Assembly: GCA_001304505.1 (NCBI GenBank)
Contig: LJUQ01000003.1
Location: 1 to 53,109 of the forward strand
Reading direction: 5' to 3'
DNA from: Bacteroides sp. SM23_62_1
GTDB taxonomy: Bacteria > Bacteroidota > Bacteroidia > Bacteroidales > SM23-62
Length of the DNA: 53,109 nucleotides
The notes below the pieces were generated by a model that saw nothing but the letters and a program-made list of their open reading frames with translations, ran no database searches and had not been told where the DNA came from. A program made the position numbers and the translations under genes. Each line of letters begins with the position of its first letter. Position 1 is the stretch's first letter. Below, in pieces: positions 620-45,534 of this stretch.

Positions 620-3600
620 ATGGAAAGAAATAAGCTGGTTCCTGACTATCTTTTTGAAGTCAGCTGGGAGGTATGCAATAAAGTGGGAGGTATCCATACA
701 GTGTTGTCGACAAAAGCAAAGACCCTGAGGGCTGATCTTGACGACAGACATATCCTGATCGGTCCTGATGTCTGGAGGGATTCTGAGGCAAATCCGGAAT
801 TTGAGGAAGATACAAATCTTTACAGGGAGTGGAAGAGAAAAGCCCTTGAAGAGGGGATCAGAATCAGAATAGGACGCTGGAAGATAAGTAGCAGACCTGT
901 TGCAATCCTTTTGGATTTCACCACATATATATCCAGGAAGGATGAAATATTCAGCAAGTTATGGGAAAGCTTCAAGCTGGATTCCATTTCCGGTCAGTGG
1001 GATTACATCGAACCGGCATTGTTTGGTTATGCAGCGGGTAATGTCATAAATAGCTTCATCAACTTTAATCTGAATCCCAGGACGAGCATTGTTGCCCATT
1101 TTCACGAATGGATGACAGGGGCCGGTTTATTATATCTGAAGGAATATGTACCACAGGTAGCGACTGTATTTACAACACATGCAACAGTGATTGGGCGATC
1201 GATTGCAGGAAACCAGCTTCCTCTTTACAGTCGCCTCGATCAGTATGATGGTGATGTAAAGTCGAATGATTTCAATGTCGTTTCAAAGCAATCACTTGAG
1301 AAGCTTGCCGCCCAGAACGCAGATGCTTTTACCACCGTCAGTGAGATTACGGCCAGAGAGTGTACACAGTTTCTGAAAAAGGAGGTGGATATTATCACAC
1401 CGAACGGTTTCGATGATTCATTTGTGCCTCAGGGTGATGATTTTATCCGCAAAAGCCAGGAAGCCAGGGAATTATTACGGAATGTCAGTGAGACAATCCT
1501 TGGATACAGGTTAAAAAATGAACCTTTAATGGTTGCTACTAGTGGGAGATATGAATTCAGAAACAAAGGCCTGGATGTGTTTATTGATGCACTTGGAGAA
1601 CTCAATACTCAGGATCTCACACGTGAAATAATTGCATATATCTGGATCCCTGCACATCATTATGGACCACGAAAAGACCTCCTTGAAGCCCTCGAATCGG
1701 GGAATCTTCTTGATGCTAACGCCTCATGCCAGACACATTACCTTCATAATCCTGAAAATGATCCAATCATTAAGGGGATCATCAAACAGGGACTGGACAA
1801 TAGTCTATCGACGAAAGTCAAAGTAATCTTTGTACCATCTTATCTTCAGGGTAGTGATGGGATCTTCAATAAATCATATTATGATCTCCTTATTGGCATG
1901 GATATTACAGTATTTCCTTCGTATTATGAACCCTGGGGTTATACACCGCTTGAAAGCCTGGCATTCCACATACCTACAATCACTACTTCACTTGCAGGAT
2001 TTGGTCTATGGGTCAGGAAGAATTATCAGAAACCTGAAAATGGCATAACTATTATTGAAAGGGATGATCAGAACTTTGATACAGCGGCTACTTTCATCAT
2101 GAAGTCACTTCTGGACTATAGCAGGTTATCACCTGATCAGACAGAGAAAGCACGCCAATCTGCATATGATATTTCAAGAATGGCATTGTGGACCAATTTC
2201 ATAGAATATTACAAGATAGCTTATGACACTGCTCTTTATATTTCAAAACACCGCACGAATCTCTATTTCGATACCGGCAAGCCTGAGGTGGCAACAGCTC
2301 AGGTCATTTCCAGTAAGCCTGAATGGAAAACATTTGTTGTCGAAGAAAATATACCTGAAAAGCTTAAAGCCCTGGAGGATTTATCCAGAAATCTCTGGTG
2401 GTCTTGGAATCACAATGCCATGGAGCTTTTCAGTTCAATTGATGAGGATTTGTGGGAAGAATCCAACAGGAATCCGATAATATTTCTTCAAAAGATTCCA
2501 CTGGCTCAATTACAAAAGCTCGAGAAGGATCGCGAATTTCTGAAAAGACTGGATCGTATCACCTCAGAGTTCCATGCTTACATGGCTGCAGGAGAAAAAA
2601 AAGAAAGACCCAAAATCGCATATTTTAGTATGGAGTTTGGTCTTCATGATTCTCTGCGTATCTATTCAGGGGGGCTGGGTGTGTTGGCAGGAGATTATCT
2701 GAAAGAGGCAAGTGATTCAAACCGTGATTTGGTAGGAATTGGATTATTGTATAAGTATGGCTACTTCACACAGGTAGTATCGGCCAGTGGGGAGCAGATC
2801 GTGTCCGATGATCCCCAGGACTTCTCAAGTACTCCTGCTCAGCCTGTGAGGAATACAAAAGGTAAGTGGAAGACTATTACAATAAAACTCCCGGGAAGAA
2901 ACCTGCTTGCCAGGATATGGAAAGTTAATGTTGGACGTATTGAGCTGTATCTCCTGGATACTGATTTTGAAGAAAATATCGAACAGGACAGGACGATTAC
3001 CCATTTTCTTTATGGCGGGGATGATGATAACCGTTTCAAACAGGAGTTGCTCCTCGGAGTGGGAGGCATCAGGGCACTTCATGTATTGAACATCATTCCT
3101 GATCTTTATCACAGCAATGAAGGTCATTCGGCATTTATCGGACTGGAAAGATTAAGGGAGATCATTCAGAAAAATAATTTGAAATTCCAGGAAGCCCTGG
3201 AGGTTGTCCGTGCATCTACCCTTTTTACCACACATACGCCTGTGCCTGCCGGCCATGATACCTTTGATGAAGGCCTGGTCAGGACTTATCTGGCACATTA
3301 TCCTGACCGGCTCGGGATTACATGGAACCATATGATACAACTGGGGAAATTAAATCCCGACGATAAAAATGAACGGTTCTCCATGAGTTATCTGGCCATC
3401 AATCTTTCACAGGAAGTCAATGGAGTTAGCCGACTTCATGGAACAGTCGCCCAGAAGATGTTTTCTGATATCTGGAAAGGCTATACAGCAGATGAGTTGT
3501 ATATCGGTTATGTAACAAATGGTGTTCATGTACCTACCTGGATGGCCAGGGGATGGATTGATCTGTATACTGCACGACTCGATGAAGAATTTATTATGAA

Positions 3601-37573: not shown

Positions 37574-38794
37574 ATGGACAGATGCTCTTTCTGCGGAAGG
37601 GAAAAGAGGGATACCAACCTGTTAATTGCCGGTATCTCGGGTCATATCTGCGATAGCTGTATCGAACAGGCGAATAGTATCCTTCAGGAAGAAATAAAAA
37701 AGAAGAGTGAATTTGATCTCAACCAGATTACTCTTCTGAAACCCGGAGAGATTAAAAAATTTCTTGATCAGTATGTGATAGGGCAGGAAACTGCTAAAAA
37801 ATATATATCTGTTGCTGTTTATAACCATTACAAAAGGTTAATGGATTCTGAGAGAACCAGCAGGGATGATGTGGAAATTGAAAAATCAAATATCATACTT
37901 GTTGGTGAAACCGGGACAGGTAAAACGCTTCTGGCCAGAACAATTGCAAGGATGCTGCATGTGCCGTTCACAATTGTGGATGCAACCGTCCTGACAGAAG
38001 CAGGGTACGTAGGTGAGGATATTGAGAGTATCCTGACACGTTTGCTACAGGTAGCAGACTATAATGTTGAAGCTGCTGAAAAAGGTATTGTCTTTATTGA
38101 TGAACTCGACAAAATTGCAAGGAAAGGTGATAATCCATCCATCACCAGGGATGTATCGGGGGAAGGTGTTCAGCAGGGTCTCCTGAAACTATTGGAAGGA
38201 TCAGTAGTGAATGTGCCACCACAGGGAGGAAGAAAACATCCCGACCAGAAAATGATCCCTGTAAATACTAAAAATATACTGTTTATCTGTGGAGGTGCTT
38301 TTGACGGAATAGAGAAAAAGATCGGCCAACGATTGAATACAAAAGTTGTTGGCTATGTGGCAAGCCGGGAGACTAATAAAGTTAACAGAGATAACCTGCT
38401 TCAATATATCGCTCCACAGGATATGAAAGCCTATGGCCTTATACCTGAAATAATTGGCAGGTTACCCATTCTGACATACCTGGATCCGCTCGACCGCCAG
38501 GCTCTGAGAAGAATACTTACCGAACCCAAAAATGCAATTATTAAACAGTATCAGAGATTATTTGAAATGGATCATATTCAGTTGTCTTTTGACGAAAGTG
38601 TATTGCAATATATTGTAGACAAATCCATTGAGTTTAAACTGGGTGCAAGAGGATTAAGATCCATCTGTGAAGCTATCATGATCGATGCAATGTTTGACAT
38701 GCCTTCCCAGAAAGTGGATGAGGCAAAAATTACCCTGAGATATGCAAAGCAGAAAATTGAAAAAGCAGATATGAACCGGCTCAGGGTAGCATAA
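37574..38794 (+). CDS. clpX: ATP-dependent Clp protease ATP-binding subunit ClpX
   Basis: Zn finger CSFCGREKRDTNLLIAGISGHICDSCI; ILVGETGTGKTLLARTIA; FIDELDKIARK. Confidence 0.97.
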   Translation: MDRCSFCGREKRDTNLLIAGISGHICDSCIEQANSILQEEIKKKSEFDLNQITLLKPGEIKKFLDQYVIGQETAKKYISVAVYNHYKRLMDSERTSRDDVEIEKSNIILVGETGTGKTLLARTIARMLHVPFTIVDATVLTEAGYVGEDIESILTRLLQVADYNVEAAEKGIVFIDELDKIARKGDNPSITRDVSGEGVQQGLLKLLEGSVVNVPPQGGRKHPDQKMIPVNTKNILFICGGAFDGIEKKIGQRLNTKVVGYVASRETNKVNRDNLLQYIAPQDMKAYGLIPEIIGRLPILTYLDPLDRQALRRILTEPKNAIIKQYQRLFEMDHIQLSFDESVLQYIVDKSIEFKLGARGLRSICEAIMIDAMFDMPSQKVDEAKITLRYAKQKIEKADMNRLRVA

Positions 38795-38801
38795 ATTTTT
38801 A

Positions 38802-38833
38802 TTTGGATAAATAAAGAAAATCATTTTTCTTTG
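38802..38833 (+). promoter_or_regulatory. Probable promoter of the trp operon
   Basis: TTTG (38802-38805), 20-nt spacer, TTTCTTTG (38826-38833), one mismatch to TAnnTTTG; just after the clpX stop. Confidence 0.55.
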
Positions 38834-38870
38834 CATTAGAAATCAGGTTATGAAATATTTGTTAATATAT

Positions 38871-38912
38871 ATGAGCTGGTGGTGGCGTAATGAACATCCC
38901 GACGGGACGTGA
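38871..38912 (+). CDS. trpL: trp operon leader peptide MSWWWRNEHPDGT (three consecutive Trp codons)
   Basis: ATG AGC TGG TGG TGG CGT AAT GAA CAT CCC GAC GGG ACG TGA directly upstream of an attenuator and trpE. Confidence 0.85.
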   Translation: MSWWWRNEHPDGT

Positions 38913-38979
38913 GTTGCGTTATACCTGCTTGTATAAATAAAATTAGAGGCTTACCAACCACGGTAAGCCTTTTTTTTTT
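38894..38979 (+). promoter_or_regulatory. trp attenuator: 1:2 stem, 2:3 antiterminator and intrinsic terminator
   Basis: 1:2 stem ACaTCCC-GAC-GGGAcGT (38894-38910); terminator AGGCTTACC-AACCAC-GGTAAGCCT-T(9) (38947-38979); alternative pairing CGTG(a)GTTG(c)GT (38908-38919) with ACCAACCACG (38953-38962). Confidence 0.85.
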
Positions 38980-38992
38980 GAAAATTAGTGAT

Positions 38993-40399
38993 ATGAAACA
39001 GATAAACATTAAGACCAGGATTAAGAAAATCCTTGCTGATACCATCACTCCTGTCAGCATTTATCTCCGGCTAAGAGATATTTTTCCATACAGCCTTTTA
39101 CTGGAAAGTTCGGATTATCACAGCAGGGAAGATAGTCATTCTTTCATATGCCTGGACCCTGTTGCATACTTTATGGTTGAAAACGAAAAGATCAAAACAT
39201 GTGATCTGGATGGCAGTGTAAATGTGAAAGATGTTAATCCTGGTATTTCTATCCCGGATGAATTAAATGGTTTTATAAACAGATTCAGGAATATCGATGA
39301 ACACTCCGAGATTAAAACGAATGGATTTTTCGGTTATTCAACCTATGATGTTGTCAGATATTTTGAGGATATATGCTTCAGACACCAGCAGAATCCTGAC
39401 TATAAGATTCCGGATATGGTATACTGTATGTACAGATATATCATTGCAATTAATCATTTTCAAAATGTTCTTTACCTGGTTGAAAACCAGACAGATCAGT
39501 TAACAGGAGATCTTGATTACGTAGAATCATTATTATATAACAGGAACATTGCCACATATCCTTTTGAACCCAAGGGGAAAGAGGAATCCAATCTTTCAGA
39601 TGAAGAATATATGAATCTGGTCAGTGAGGGCATAAAACATTGCCACAGGGGTGATGTTTTCCAGATTGTATTATCACGACAATTCAGGCAATCATTCTCA
39701 GGAGATGAATTCAATGTTTACCGTTGCCTGCGATCTATCAATCCCTCTCCTTACCTGTTTTATTTTGATTACGGTAGTTATAAAATATTTGGGTCCTCTC
39801 CTGAGGCTCTTCTTCAGGTCATTTCGGGCAAAGCTTATATCCATCCTATTGCCGGTACTTTTAAAAGGACTGGGAATGATGAGGAAGATAAAAAGCTGGC
39901 TCTTGAACTGGCGGATGATAGAAAAGAAAACTCAGAACATGTGATGCTCGTTGACCTTGCCAGGAATGACTTAAGCAGGAATGCCGATCATGTAAAAGTG
40001 GAAACTTTCCGTGAGATTCAGTTTTTCTCACATGTCATCCATATGGTGTCAAAAGTATCCGGGATACTCCCAGATAATTATAATTCAATAAGGATTATGG
40101 CCGATTCCTTTCCGGCAGGTACATTATCCGGAGCTCCCAAATATAAAGCGATGCAACTTATCGACAGATATGAGAATCAAAACAGGGGATACTATGGCGG
40201 AGGGATCGGATATATCGGATTTAAGGGAGATTTTAATCATGCCATCATGATCAGGTCATTTTTAAGCAAGGACAATACCCTTTTTTATCAGGCAGGTGCA
40301 GGGATTGTGGCAGACTCAAAAGAAGAAAAAGAATTACAGGAAGTGAACAATAAACTGATGGCCCTGAAAAATGCTATTCTGCAGGCAGGGAAAATTTAG
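38993..40399 (+). CDS. trpE: Anthranilate synthase component I (start moved from 38909 to ATG 38993)
   Basis: FQIVLSRQFRQSFSGDEFNVYRCLRSINPSPYLFYFDYG, GSSPEALLQV, PIAGTFKRTGNDEEDKKLALELADDRKENSEHVMLVDLARNDL. Confidence 0.95.
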   Translation: MKQINIKTRIKKILADTITPVSIYLRLRDIFPYSLLLESSDYHSREDSHSFICLDPVAYFMVENEKIKTCDLDGSVNVKDVNPGISIPDELNGFINRFRNIDEHSEIKTNGFFGYSTYDVVRYFEDICFRHQQNPDYKIPDMVYCMYRYIIAINHFQNVLYLVENQTDQLTGDLDYVESLLYNRNIATYPFEPKGKEESNLSDEEYMNLVSEGIKHCHRGDVFQIVLSRQFRQSFSGDEFNVYRCLRSINPSPYLFYFDYGSYKIFGSSPEALLQVISGKAYIHPIAGTFKRTGNDEEDKKLALELADDRKENSEHVMLVDLARNDLSRNADHVKVETFREIQFFSHVIHMVSKVSGILPDNYNSIRIMADSFPAGTLSGAPKYKAMQLIDRYENQNRGYYGGGIGYIGFKGDFNHAIMIRSFLSKDNTLFYQAGAGIVADSKEEKELQEVNNKLMALKNAILQAGKI

Positions 40400-40403
40400 A
40401 ATA

Positions 40404-40973
40404 ATGAAAATAGCTGTTATTGATAATTATGATTCTTTCACATATAACCTGGTGCATGCTCTGAAACAGATTTCCCGGCAGCAGGTGGTTGTTTTTCGGA
40501 ATGACAGGGTAAATAATGAAGAGCTCAGGATCTTTGACAAAATCTTATTATCGCCCGGTCCCGGTATACCTGATGAGGCAGGAATGCTGAAATCTATAAT
40601 CAGGCGATGGGCCCCTGAAAAGAGTATACTTGGAGTATGTCTTGGTCACCAGGCAATTGCAGAAGTATTCGGGGGGAAACTCATAAATATCCGGAAAGTT
40701 TTTCACGGTGTTGCAACAAAAATAAAGATACTGAAATCAGATGATCACCTGTTTCTGGAATTGCCAGAATTTCTGGAAGGTGGCAGGTATCATTCCTGGA
40801 TCGTCTCCTCGAAAGATCTTCCGGATTGTTTTGAAATCACTGCAGAAGCGGAGGATGGTGAAATAATGGCAATATCGCATAAAGAATATGACCTGAAAGG
40901 TTTACAGTTTCACCCGGAATCAGTACTAACCACACTGGGAGAAAAGATTATTTCAAACTGGTTGAATTATTAA
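40404..40973 (+). CDS. trpG: Anthranilate synthase component II (glutamine amidotransferase)
   Basis: IAVIDNYDSFTYNLVHAL, LLSPGPGIPDEAGM, ILGVCLGHQAIAEVFGG, LQFHPESVLT. Confidence 0.95.
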   Translation: MKIAVIDNYDSFTYNLVHALKQISRQQVVVFRNDRVNNEELRIFDKILLSPGPGIPDEAGMLKSIIRRWAPEKSILGVCLGHQAIAEVFGGKLINIRKVFHGVATKIKILKSDDHLFLELPEFLEGGRYHSWIVSSKDLPDCFEITAEAEDGEIMAISHKEYDLKGLQFHPESVLTTLGEKIISNWLNY

Positions 40974-41033
40974 TTATGATGCATTATATGATTGAATATA
41001 TAGTGAACCTAATAATTATTTATCAATCTGACT

Positions 41034-42029
41034 ATGAAAAATATTCTGAATTATCTCTATGAGCATAAGATATTAACCAAGGAAGAAGCGAAACAGGTAC
41101 TTACCAATATTGCAAAAGGGCTTTATAATCATTCTCAGATTGCATCTTTTATAAGTGTCTACCTGATGAGGAGTATTACCCTTCAGGAACTCTCAGGGTT
41201 CAGGGATGCCCTGCTGGATCTGTGTATTCCTGTGAATCTTTCGGATTATGATACAATCGATGTTTGTGGTACCGGCGGAGATGCCAAAGATACTTTCAAC
41301 ATATCAACCATTACAACCTTTATCGTTGCGGGAGCCGGAGCAAAAGTAGCCAAGCACGGCAATTATGCTGTTTCATCAACATGCGGATCATCCAATATTA
41401 TGGAACACATCGGGTATAAATTTTCAAACGATGAAGATAAATTAAGGAGAGAGATAGAACTTGCCGGTGTCTGTTTTTTGCATGCACCCTTGTTTAATCC
41501 GGCCATGAAAAATGTTGCCCCGGTGAGGAGGGAACTTGGTGTAAAAACTTTCTTCAATATGCTTGGTCCCCTCGTTAATCCGGCATCTCCGAAAAAACAG
41601 ATGGCAGGAGTGTATAGTCTTGAACTGGCCAGGTTATATAGCTATATGTTTCAACAGCTGGAAAAAGATTTTGTGATCATCCATAGCCTGGATGGATATG
41701 ATGAGGTCTCCCTCACCGGGGAATGCAAAATCATCACACGTGATCTTGAACAAATACTCAATCCTGCTGACCTTGGATTGAAAAAGTGTCTTCCGGGTGA
41801 GCTGGCAGGAGGAAAAACAGTTGCTGAAGCTGCTGATATTTTTATTCATGTCCTTGAAAATACCGGAACACCTGCACAGCATGATATAGCAATTGCAAAT
41901 GCAGGCCTGGCACTCAAAGCATATTTCCCCGGGAAAAATATTCCGGAATGTATTGACGGCGCCAGAGAATCGCTGGAAAGCGGGAAGGCTCTCCATTCGC
42001 TTAAAAGGCTTATTGAATTGAATAAATGA
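41034..42029 (+). CDS. trpD: Anthranilate phosphoribosyltransferase
   Basis: TIDVCGTGGDAKDTFNISTITTFIVAGAGAKVAKHGNYAVSSTCGSSNIMEHIG. Confidence 0.96.
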   Translation: MKNILNYLYEHKILTKEEAKQVLTNIAKGLYNHSQIASFISVYLMRSITLQELSGFRDALLDLCIPVNLSDYDTIDVCGTGGDAKDTFNISTITTFIVAGAGAKVAKHGNYAVSSTCGSSNIMEHIGYKFSNDEDKLRREIELAGVCFLHAPLFNPAMKNVAPVRRELGVKTFFNMLGPLVNPASPKKQMAGVYSLELARLYSYMFQQLEKDFVIIHSLDGYDEVSLTGECKIITRDLEQILNPADLGLKKCLPGELAGGKTVAEAADIFIHVLENTGTPAQHDIAIANAGLALKAYFPGKNIPECIDGARESLESGKALHSLKRLIELNK

Positions 42030-42814
42030 ATATCCTGGAACAAATAATTACTTATAAGAACAAAGAAGTTAAACGGATGAAAGATCTTTATCCTGTGAAA
42101 CTGCTGGAACATAAAGTATACTTTCAGAGGAATACGAATTCATTATCCGGCAGCCTGGGAAAAAATAGACCAGGTATTATTGCAGAGTTTAAGAGAAAAT
42201 CTCCTTCTGCCGGTCAATTTGGTAATCAGACGGATTTAGGACAGGTAATAAGGGGCTATGTTGAATCAGGTGCCGCAGCTCTGTCTGTCCTTACTGATGA
42301 AAAATATTTTGGTGGCAACATTGAAGATTTGAGCGAGGCAAGGGAAAAAACAGATCACCCCATTCTGAGAAAGGATTTTATCGTGGATGAGTATCAGATC
42401 ATCGAAGCCAGGGCTGCAGGTGCTGATGCAGTGTTATTGATCGCAGAAATACTAACTGAAAATCAGGTTTATGAATTTACCGGCCTGGCCAGGTCGTTTT
42501 CCCTGGAAGTGATTCTGGAGATTCATCATTCAGATCAGTTGAACAAATTATGTGACGGGATCACAATTGTTGGCGTGAACAACAGGAATCTTGTAGACCT
42601 TACGGTCGATGTGAACAGGTCTTTTGAACTGGCCTCCAGCATTCCAGGCAAATTCATGAAAATCTCCGAAAGTGGTATCAGTTCACCGGACACAATCATT
42701 CAATTAACAGAAACCGGATATCAGGGTTTTCTTATCGGAGAGTATTTCATGAAACATGATACACCACAGGAGGCTTGTAAGAAGTTGATTGAAGAGATTC
42801 TGGCGGATGATTAG
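42026..42814 (+). CDS. trpC: Indole-3-glycerol phosphate synthase
   Basis: GIIAEFKRKSPSAGQF, LSVLTDEKYFGG, LRKDFIVDEYQIIEARAAGADAVLLI, VGVNNRNL, SESGI; ATGA overlap with trpD. Confidence 0.96.
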   Translation: MNILEQIITYKNKEVKRMKDLYPVKLLEHKVYFQRNTNSLSGSLGKNRPGIIAEFKRKSPSAGQFGNQTDLGQVIRGYVESGAAALSVLTDEKYFGGNIEDLSEAREKTDHPILRKDFIVDEYQIIEARAAGADAVLLIAEILTENQVYEFTGLARSFSLEVILEIHHSDQLNKLCDGITIVGVNNRNLVDLTVDVNRSFELASSIPGKFMKISESGISSPDTIIQLTETGYQGFLIGEYFMKHDTPQEACKKLIEEILADD

Positions 42815-42860
42815 ATAGAGGGAATGGAAGAAGGCTGGAGCATAATATTGCAATGAATCC

Positions 42861-42923
42861 GACTCACCCCCCCTTTTGATTCCTTCCTCTTATACGAGTG
42901 AGAGGGACTGGGGGGTGAATCCA
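42861..42923. repeat. Diverged copy of the TCACCCCCC...GGGGGGTGA palindrome, between trpC and trpF
   Basis: GACTCACCCCCCC...CCTCT...AGAGG...GGGGGGTGA; same nested layout as 8508-8570. Confidence 0.85.
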
Positions 42924-42939
42924 CAACACTTGAAAATAA

Positions 42940-43572
42940 ATGAGCCTTAAAATAAAAGTATGCGGCATGAAGGATCCTGATAATATCAGGTTGGTGTGTG
43001 AATTACAACCTGATTTTATGGGATTTATTTTCTATTCCGGTTCTCCAAGGTATTTTGAAGGAACTGATGATCCTTTCAGTCACACAGATGTACAAGGAAC
43101 GGAAAAAGTTGGAGTATTTGTTAATGAGACTGTTGAAAGCGTATTATATAAAATCGGGAGGTATAAGTTGGACATGGTACAACTTCATGGTAATGAAACA
43201 CCCGAATATTGTTCCACCATTAAAAGAGCAGGTATTCCCATCATTAAAGCCGCTTGCATAAATAATCATAAAGATTTGGAAAATCTTTCCGTGTTTGAAA
43301 ATCATTGTGATTATTTTTTGTTTGACAAGGGGGGACAAAAATTCGGTGGCACAGGTGAAAAATTTAGCTGGGAGATTCTTAAGTCCTATACCATGCATAT
43401 TCCTTTTTTTCTGAGCGGGGGGATTGGCCCTGATGATGCAGGGATCATAAAAGAATTGAATCATCCCGGCCTCTTTGCCGTTGACATCAATAGCCGGTTC
43501 GAAATTTCTCCGGGAATGAAAGATGTATCTCTTGTAAAAACCTTTATTAAATCTATAAGACAGCAGATATGA
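42940..43572 (+). CDS. trpF: Phosphoribosylanthranilate isomerase
   Basis: [63 protein letters not shown]. Confidence 0.94.
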
Positions 43573-44753
43573 CGTTCAAAGTAGATGAATATGGATACTA
43601 TGGGGAATTTGGAGGAAGTTATATTCCTGAAATGCTATACAGGAATGTGGAAGAATTACAAAGCAGATATTCTGATATACTTTCTGAGGAATCTTTCAGG
43701 AATGAATTTAAGGAATTGCTGGAAGATTATGCAGGCAGACCAACTCCTTTGTATTTTGCCTCCAGGCTTTCAGGGTATTATAAATCGAGGATTTATCTTA
43801 AAAGGGAGGATCTGAACCATACAGGGTCGCATAAAATAAATAATACGATTGGCCAGATCCTGATGGCAAAAAAACTGGGTAAAACAAGGATTATAGCCGA
43901 AACCGGTGCCGGGCAACATGGTGTTGCCACAGCAACTGTCTGTGCATTATCGGGTTTGGAATGTATTGTTTATATGGGGCGGGTTGATGTTGAGAGACAG
44001 CAACCCAATGTGCTGAAGATGAAAATGCTGGGGGCTGAGGTAGTACCAGTCGACAGTGGGAATCAAACCCTGAAGGATGCTACCAATGAAGCTATCCGGG
44101 ATTGGATTAGCCATCCACAGGATACGCATTATATTATCGGTTCTGTTGTTGGCCCTCACCCATATCCCGATCTGGTTGCAAGACTTCAGAGTGTAATCAG
44201 TGACGAACTAAAATGGCAGCTCAGGGAGAAAGAGGGGAGGGAAGCACCGGATTATATCCTGGCATGTGTGGGAGGTGGAAGCAATGCAATAGGGATATTT
44301 TATCATTATATTATGAACAGTGATGTAGAGTTGATAGGTGTGGAAGCTGCCGGTAAAGGTCTGGAAACAGGATTTTCTGCTGCAACGATGAGCCTTGGCA
44401 GTCCTGGAGTTATCCATGGGAGCCGTACTTTATTAATGCAGGATAATGATGGCCAGATACTTGAGCCTTACTCAATCTCGGCCGGACTGGATTATCCGGG
44501 TGTGGGTCCCGTACACGCTTTCCTCCATCAAACAGGCAGAGTCAGCTATATGAATGTGACAGATAAAGAAGCCCTGAATGCTGCGTTCCTTCTTGCAAGA
44601 ATGGAAGGCATTATTCCTGCCCTTGAAACAGCACACGCACTGGCAGTACTTGAAAAAATCACTTTCAGGGAAGAAGATGTAATTGTAATAAACCTGTCGG
44701 GAAGGGGAGACAAAGACATGGGTGCTTATACAAAAGAAATTGATAATGAATAG
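43569..44753 (+). CDS. trpB: Tryptophan synthase beta chain
   Basis: [75 protein letters not shown]. Confidence 0.97.
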
Positions 44754-45534
44754 AATAGATTTATTATTCAAACAGAAAGATAAAAATATTCTTTCGGTCT
44801 ATTTCACAGCCGGCTATCCCCGTCTTGAAGATACCATTCCGATAATCAGGGCATTACAACAGAATGGTGTGGATCTGGTCGAAATTGGAATCCCCTTCTC
44901 TGATCCCCTGGCTGATGGTAAAATATTACAGTTAAGCAATCAGCAAGCCCTCAGGAATGGAATGACACTGCAAATCCTGTTCAGTCAGCTGCAAAATATC
45001 AGGGAGGAAATCCGGATCCCTCTGATCCTAATGGGATATCTTAATCCTGTCCTGCGTTTTGGAATGGAAAAATTCTGTGAGACAGCAAACAGGATTGGTA
45101 TAGACGGAATTATTTTACCGGATCTGCCTCCGGATATTTATCAGAGGGAATTTAAGAATATATTCATGAAATATGGACTATACAAAATATTCCTGATTGC
45201 TCCGGAAACAGGTGAAGAAAGGATAAGAACTATAGACAGGGAAGGTAATGGATTTATATATATGGTTTCATCGTCCACCACAACAGGATCGACAGGCAAA
45301 TTAGGGGAAGTGCAGACCGGTTATTTTAAGAGGATTCATGATATGAAACTGAGACTCCCGGGATTGGTTGGATTTGGGATATCGTCTCATGAGACTTTTA
45401 TGCAGGCATGTAAACATGCCAGTGGTGCTATCATTGGCAGTGCCTTTGTCGGGGCACTAGGTGCGGAAGGGAACCTGGAAAGGATAATAAAGGATTTTGT
45501 GAATGGAATAAGGACAGGGGAGGAGCAAAGTTAA
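44746..45534 (+). CDS. trpA: Tryptophan synthase alpha chain (start at ATG 44746)
   Basis: [54 protein letters not shown]; 8-bp overlap with trpB. Confidence 0.95.

Follow-up and report, generated by a model that had tools for sequence, protein, structure and literature searches.

The window analysed, 53,109 nucleotides of contig LJUQ01000003.1 from Bacteroides sp. SM23_62_1, contains a trp operon in the order trpEGDCFBA (38993–45534), separated from the end of clpX at 38794 by a gap that extends to the trpE start codon (38794–38993). The best NCBIfam model for trpE was TIGR00564 (E 4e-126, under the curated cut-off of that model). The first-pass annotation had described a trp attenuator in this gap, overrun by the supplied trpE ORF. 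The upstream ORF, starting at GTG 38909, does exist as an ORF, and TrpE homologues align from the ATG at 38993, as had been supposed. The attenuator stretch folded at −51.2 kcal/mol, compared with −30.7 kcal/mol for dinucleotide shuffles (z = −5.5; none of 200 shuffles equally stable). The features of the region are as follows.

38802–38805, forward strand: −33 promoter box TTTG of the pair TTTG-N20-TTTCTTTG; the pair is conserved in the family.
38826–38833, forward strand: −7 promoter box TTTCTTTG, TAnnTTTG with one mismatch, at a position conserved in the family.
38850–38912, forward strand: leader peptide ORF MKYLLIYMSWWWRNEHPDGT, 20 amino acids, most likely start (ORF; RF01692 alignment, spacing in relatives, promoter).
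38868–38891, forward strand: predicted strand 1, containing the Trp codons and pairing with 38913–38935 (minimum-energy fold).
38877–38885, forward strand: three consecutive Trp (UGG) control codons (sequence; conserved in relatives).
38894–38910, forward strand: predicted apical mini-hairpin with a UCCC-GAC-GGGA core.
38908–38935, forward strand: predicted strand 2; 38908–38919 and 38927–38930 pair with strand 3, 38913–38935 with strand 1 (state folding).
38947–38962, forward strand: predicted strand 3, the terminator 5′ arm and loop, partner of strand 2 (state folding, duplex test, column counts).
38947–38979, forward strand: predicted intrinsic terminator (strands 3:4), 9-bp stem 38947–38955/38962–38970 plus U-run, −14.2 kcal/mol.
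38993–40399, forward strand: trpE, true ATG at 38993; homologues align from residue 1.
40404–45534, forward strand: trpG-trpD-trpC-trpF-trpB-trpA, the remainder of the controlled operon (ORFs, NCBIfam).

The leader ORF had been placed at 38871–38912, and this segment reads, as described, ATG AGC TGG TGG TGG CGT AAT GAA CAT CCC GAC GGG ACG TGA, with three UGG codons in the RNA. A longer ORF in the same frame, with its start at ATG 38850, includes this segment as its 3′ part, and the start had probably been set too far downstream. Judged from the sequence, 38850 is most likely the leader start, because the first Trp is preceded by 7–10 residues in most relatives, because the AUG of the Rfam RF01692 model falls on 38850 when the model is aligned to the window, and because the promoter upstream is conserved in the family. 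The boxes of this promoter follow the Bacteroidota consensus (PMC7366714) and lie 43 nt before the Trp codons. The same pair, with a spacing of 19–20 nt and 42–43 nt before the Trp codons, was found in all five WWW-leader family members scanned (L003, L004, L006, L007 and L009), and a perfect TTTG plus TAnnTTTG combination occurred 30–70 nt before the Trp codons in 41 of 140 loci, versus none in shuffles. As the −7 box occupies positions −12 to −5 (PMC9723704), transcription is predicted to start near 38838. An improbable alternative is that the leader is the 13-codon ORF from 38871, read from a nearly leaderless RNA made at a second promoter-like pair (TTTG at 38830–38833, N20, AATATTTG at 38854–38861). 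This pair fits the consensus here as well as the first one does, but it was rejected since it is found in no family member, whereas the first is present in all five scanned; the residues ahead of Trp in most relatives and the RF01692 alignment also speak against the shorter leader.

The predicted fold also departs from that of the first-pass annotation, which had given 38894–38910 as the 1:2 hairpin, located after the Trp codons. A hairpin is indeed predicted there, as the tip of a much larger hairpin spanning 38868–38935 that includes all three UGG codons. The proposed pairing of strand 2 (38908–38919) with strand 3 (38953–38962) was recovered at −10.6 kcal/mol, its 10 bp interrupted by two single-base bulges, and the helix is longer than first described by 4 bp (38927–38930 with 38947–38950). 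The strong terminator reported before trpE was likewise found, with its 9-bp stem, T residues at 38970–38979 and 13 nt to the ATG at 38993. The CGUGAG core of strand 2 is conserved in relatives. Just ahead of strand 2, the mini-hairpin reads CCC-GAC-GGG in the window (38897–38907) and GGG-NNN-CCC in family members including L005, L006 and L009, which looks like an exchange of the arms with the hairpin retained.

Alternative structures were predicted for defined ribosome positions, the ribosome being assumed to cover 12 nt downstream from the first base of the A site. Without a ribosome the 1:2 helix formed, the 2:3 probability was 0 and the terminator probability was 1. When any of the three UGG codons occupied the A site and the transcript extended no further than strand 3, the 2:3 probability was 0.79–1.0; in this stalled state 38927–38930 also paired with 38947–38950, and the mini-hairpin core could still form alongside the 2:3 helix. 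With the ribosome at the UGA, strand 2 was covered and the terminator probability was again 1. The position of the ribosome thus switches the predicted fold between 2:3 and terminator, as the first-pass annotation had anticipated. Once strand 4 has been made, the equilibrium favours the terminator in every state, stalled ribosome included, and antitermination must therefore be kinetic.

We infer the transcription start, the translation of the leader, the ribosome positions and the Trp response to be as follows. RNA polymerase would start near 38838 and a ribosome would load at AUG 38850. When charged tRNA-Trp is scarce, the ribosome would stall on the UGG codons at 38877–38885 with strand 1 melted, and strand 2 could then pair with strand 3 while strand 4 is still to be synthesised, so that no terminator would form and the operon would be transcribed. 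With ample Trp, the ribosome would reach the UGA at 38910–38912 and cover strand 2, allowing the 3:4 terminator to form and transcription to stop at about 38979. If the leader is not translated, 1:2 would form, and termination would be expected too.

Conservation was examined with TrpE homologues drawn from six other genomes of the family, from a search of 393 genomes of the order, and from 80 loci in public genomes of several Bacteroidota classes. An ATG-started short leader with WW or W.WW was found in 140 of 187 distinct trpE upstream regions, compared with 2.2 in dinucleotide shuffles and none on the reverse strand; WWW leaders accounted for 108 of the 187 loci, with none in shuffles or on the reverse strand. 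In nearly all of the leader-bearing regions (138/140) a hairpin terminator separates the leader from trpE. Some regions outside the WW/W.WW pattern bear W-x-W leaders, among them L005 of the family (WCW), L054, L073 and L079. In 20 regions without a leader near trpE, trpB lies directly upstream in 16, and in 15 of those the leader precedes trpB. The attenuator is therefore found at the head of the operon irrespective of which gene comes first.

Several arrangements were noted in the course of this survey. In many genomes of the order the trp operon opens with trpB (L231–L250), and the attenuator precedes that gene. One locus, L103 (G012:C131:3152-3240 and 3294-3400), has two tandem attenuators before a single trpE, each with its own WWW leader, and two W-rich leaders were also seen at L040, L065, L101, L104 and L158. 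Pedobacter-type loci (L035, L073, L079, L089 and L094) have leaders with WWR, WQW, WWW or WWH and a different terminator core (CCCGACG...CGTCGGG type), and perhaps constitute a distinct sub-type.

For the pairing test, the strand-2 region of each locus was duplexed with its own strand 3 and with that of every other locus. Over all loci the 2:3 duplex had a mean of −13.4 kcal/mol for cognate and −9.9 kcal/mol for non-cognate partners; for 48 non-redundant loci the values were −13.6 and, with permuted partners, −9.6 kcal/mol (z −10.9; no permutation among 20,000 reached so low a value). In the window the 2:3 duplex is good and not outstanding, since 13 of 136 strand-3 partners bind the window's strand 2 better than its own strand 3 does. 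Among 20 aligned kin the 3:4 helix was 100% paired, with changes on both sides at 7 of 9 pairs compared with 3.0 in shuffles. In the same 20-sequence alignment the short 2:3 core was 93% paired, versus 18–51% when slid, and column covariation in it is weak because this core is nearly invariant among close kin. The expected number of 2:3 pairs over 136 loci was 3.2 in the free state, 11.7 in the stalled state and 3.3 with the ribosome at the stop codon, the stalled value exceeding the free one in 134 of the 136. Absence of the leader or the pairing from close relatives, which the first-pass annotation had named as refuting its reading, was not seen: both are kept throughout the family and the order and in further classes of Bacteroidota.

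Control by another route (a T-box, a TRAP-type protein, Rho or translational control of trpE), with the leader in a secondary role, is very unlikely: other roles are conceivable for the mini-hairpin and for the long 1:2 hairpin, but no T-box or other regulatory family scored above the Rfam thresholds in the window, and relatives have kept an intrinsic terminator together with its alternating helices. For the T-box, there was no match at gathering level in the window and none in the attenuator region up to E 10. The reading in which the terminator serves only to finish the transcript of clpX, with Trp codons there by chance, draws on the position of the clpX end (38794) just upstream, and it can practically be dismissed, since the leader/terminator pair accompanies trp operons in hundreds of genomes, trpB-first operons included, and the 2:3 pairing covaries.

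Classical ribosome-mediated attenuation is the best explanation of the conserved leader and pairing, the covariation and the state-dependent folds, all of which, like the individual parts, were computed. In agreement with a classical attenuator, the region has a tandem-Trp leader ORF upstream of trp biosynthesis genes, an intrinsic terminator between the leader and the first gene and, computationally, mutually exclusive 1:2, 2:3 and 3:4 helices chosen by ribosome position. On sequence and modelling grounds, trpEGDCFBA is therefore very probably controlled by a ribosome-mediated transcription attenuator.

A covariance model, R1, was built from the window together with its kin, 20 sequences in all. 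When the window's own genome was searched with R1, there was a single further match, outside the window (G000:C179:5570-5670, L252:1462-1605; 40.9 bits, E 4e-6), located 37 nt before a gene for a TrpB-like PLP enzyme identified as trpB2 (NF009057, 545.6 bits, cut-off 366). The leader peptide at this second site is MISYTHITFWFWCWCWLCAPGKL, and its strands 2 and 3 pair over about 13 bp with no mismatch (−15.1 kcal/mol), with a sequence different from that of the trpE site. Seven further R1 matches in 149 genomes lie directly before trpB2. Of the 48 trpB2 loci sampled in the order, 33 carry a W.?W leader and 30 combine leader and terminator; the shuffle rate for such a leader was 1.3% per locus. 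Pairing of 2:3 with the own partner surpassed that with permuted partners (z −8.0, 22 non-redundant loci). The source genome is a draft with 7% estimated contamination, and the trpB2 loci L254, L255 and L258 of the same family show the same arrangement. The own genome has 62 TGGTGGTGG sites, and among the 30 inspected none resembled a leader with a terminator.

These results point to a likely multi-site Trp attenuation regulon in Bacteroidota, in which the solitary paralogue trpB2 has its own leader-peptide attenuator of different sequence and the same design. No prior report of a trpB2 attenuator in Bacteroidota was found among the open-access papers searched. In Corynebacterium diphtheriae, a second trp locus, trpB2A, has been described with a candidate attenuator in front of it (PMC1262725). 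The attenuator before trpB2 offers a hint, from regulation, at the function of a gene that has been physiologically obscure. If the regulon holds, trpB2 would be called on when tryptophan itself is short; attenuation may then be a general, phylum-wide route of Trp sensing, and close coupling of transcription and translation would be required in bacteria that do not use Shine-Dalgarno sequences.

A single trp attenuator before a trp operon is ordinary, and it is the reach of the element that counts: it is near-universal at the order's sampled trp operon heads and common in the wider Bacteroidota. Indirectly, the conservation of a ribosome-dependent terminator also suggests that the ribosome follows RNA polymerase closely in this phylum. 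The public Rfam model, RF01692, found the element at its cut-off in 10 of 198 genomes of the order (about 5%) and in none of the window's family; most copies are consequently unannotated, and trpE starts may be miscalled over the attenuator.

When the whole window was searched with Rfam at gathering thresholds, no leader was matched and the sole gathering-level match was a tRNA. GibS, Phe_leader and L10_leader overlapped the hairpins or the terminator with low scores far under their own cut-offs and were discarded, and a search of plasmids at the DNA level gave no match. The enterobacterial trp leader (RF00513, E. coli trpL) shares with the window tandem Trp codons in strand 1, a 2:3 antiterminator and a 3:4 terminator, whereas the window has WWW instead of WW and a phylum-specific promoter. 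RF00513 was absent from the Rfam matches of the window, which lies below its 41-bit cut-off, and the trpE upstream regions of family members L004, L006, L007 and L009 gave 26–31 bits over the full length against the same cut-off; the resemblance is read as shared design, not descent. The actinobacterial trp attenuators of Corynebacterium and Streptomyces have a leader with a double or triple UGG and a classical terminator, but belong to another phylum and carry another conserved sequence, gGCC-rGCy-GGCC (PMC1262725). In Flavobacterium psychrophilum, of the same phylum as the window though in other genomes, there are strong clues for leader-peptide attenuation before amino-acid operons (PMC9723704, PMC6414381), and Bacteroid-trp was noted upstream of the trp operon, with attenuation proposed (PMC6414381).

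Bacteroid-trp is the family RF01692, listed by Weinberg et al. 2010 (PMC2864571), and it agrees in setting: Bacteroidota, the head of the trp operon, and a leader ORF with Trp codons that aligns start to start with that of the window. The Rfam model differs in ending at the 5′ arm of the terminator, without the 3:4 helix. The window scored 39.5 bits end to end over 38830–38955, under the gathering cut-off of 49 bits, and is not an RF01692 member by Rfam's own rule. In the opposite direction, R1 gave 66.9, 59.5 and 48.2 bits at the homologous place of the established RF01692 members L080, L244 and L250, versus at most 13.1 bits for 28 control loci; these matches favour common descent, most likely as one divergent family, but the element is short and under functional constraint. 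The attenuator of the window is thus probably a divergent relative of the Bacteroid-trp leader, and is of a kind already known.
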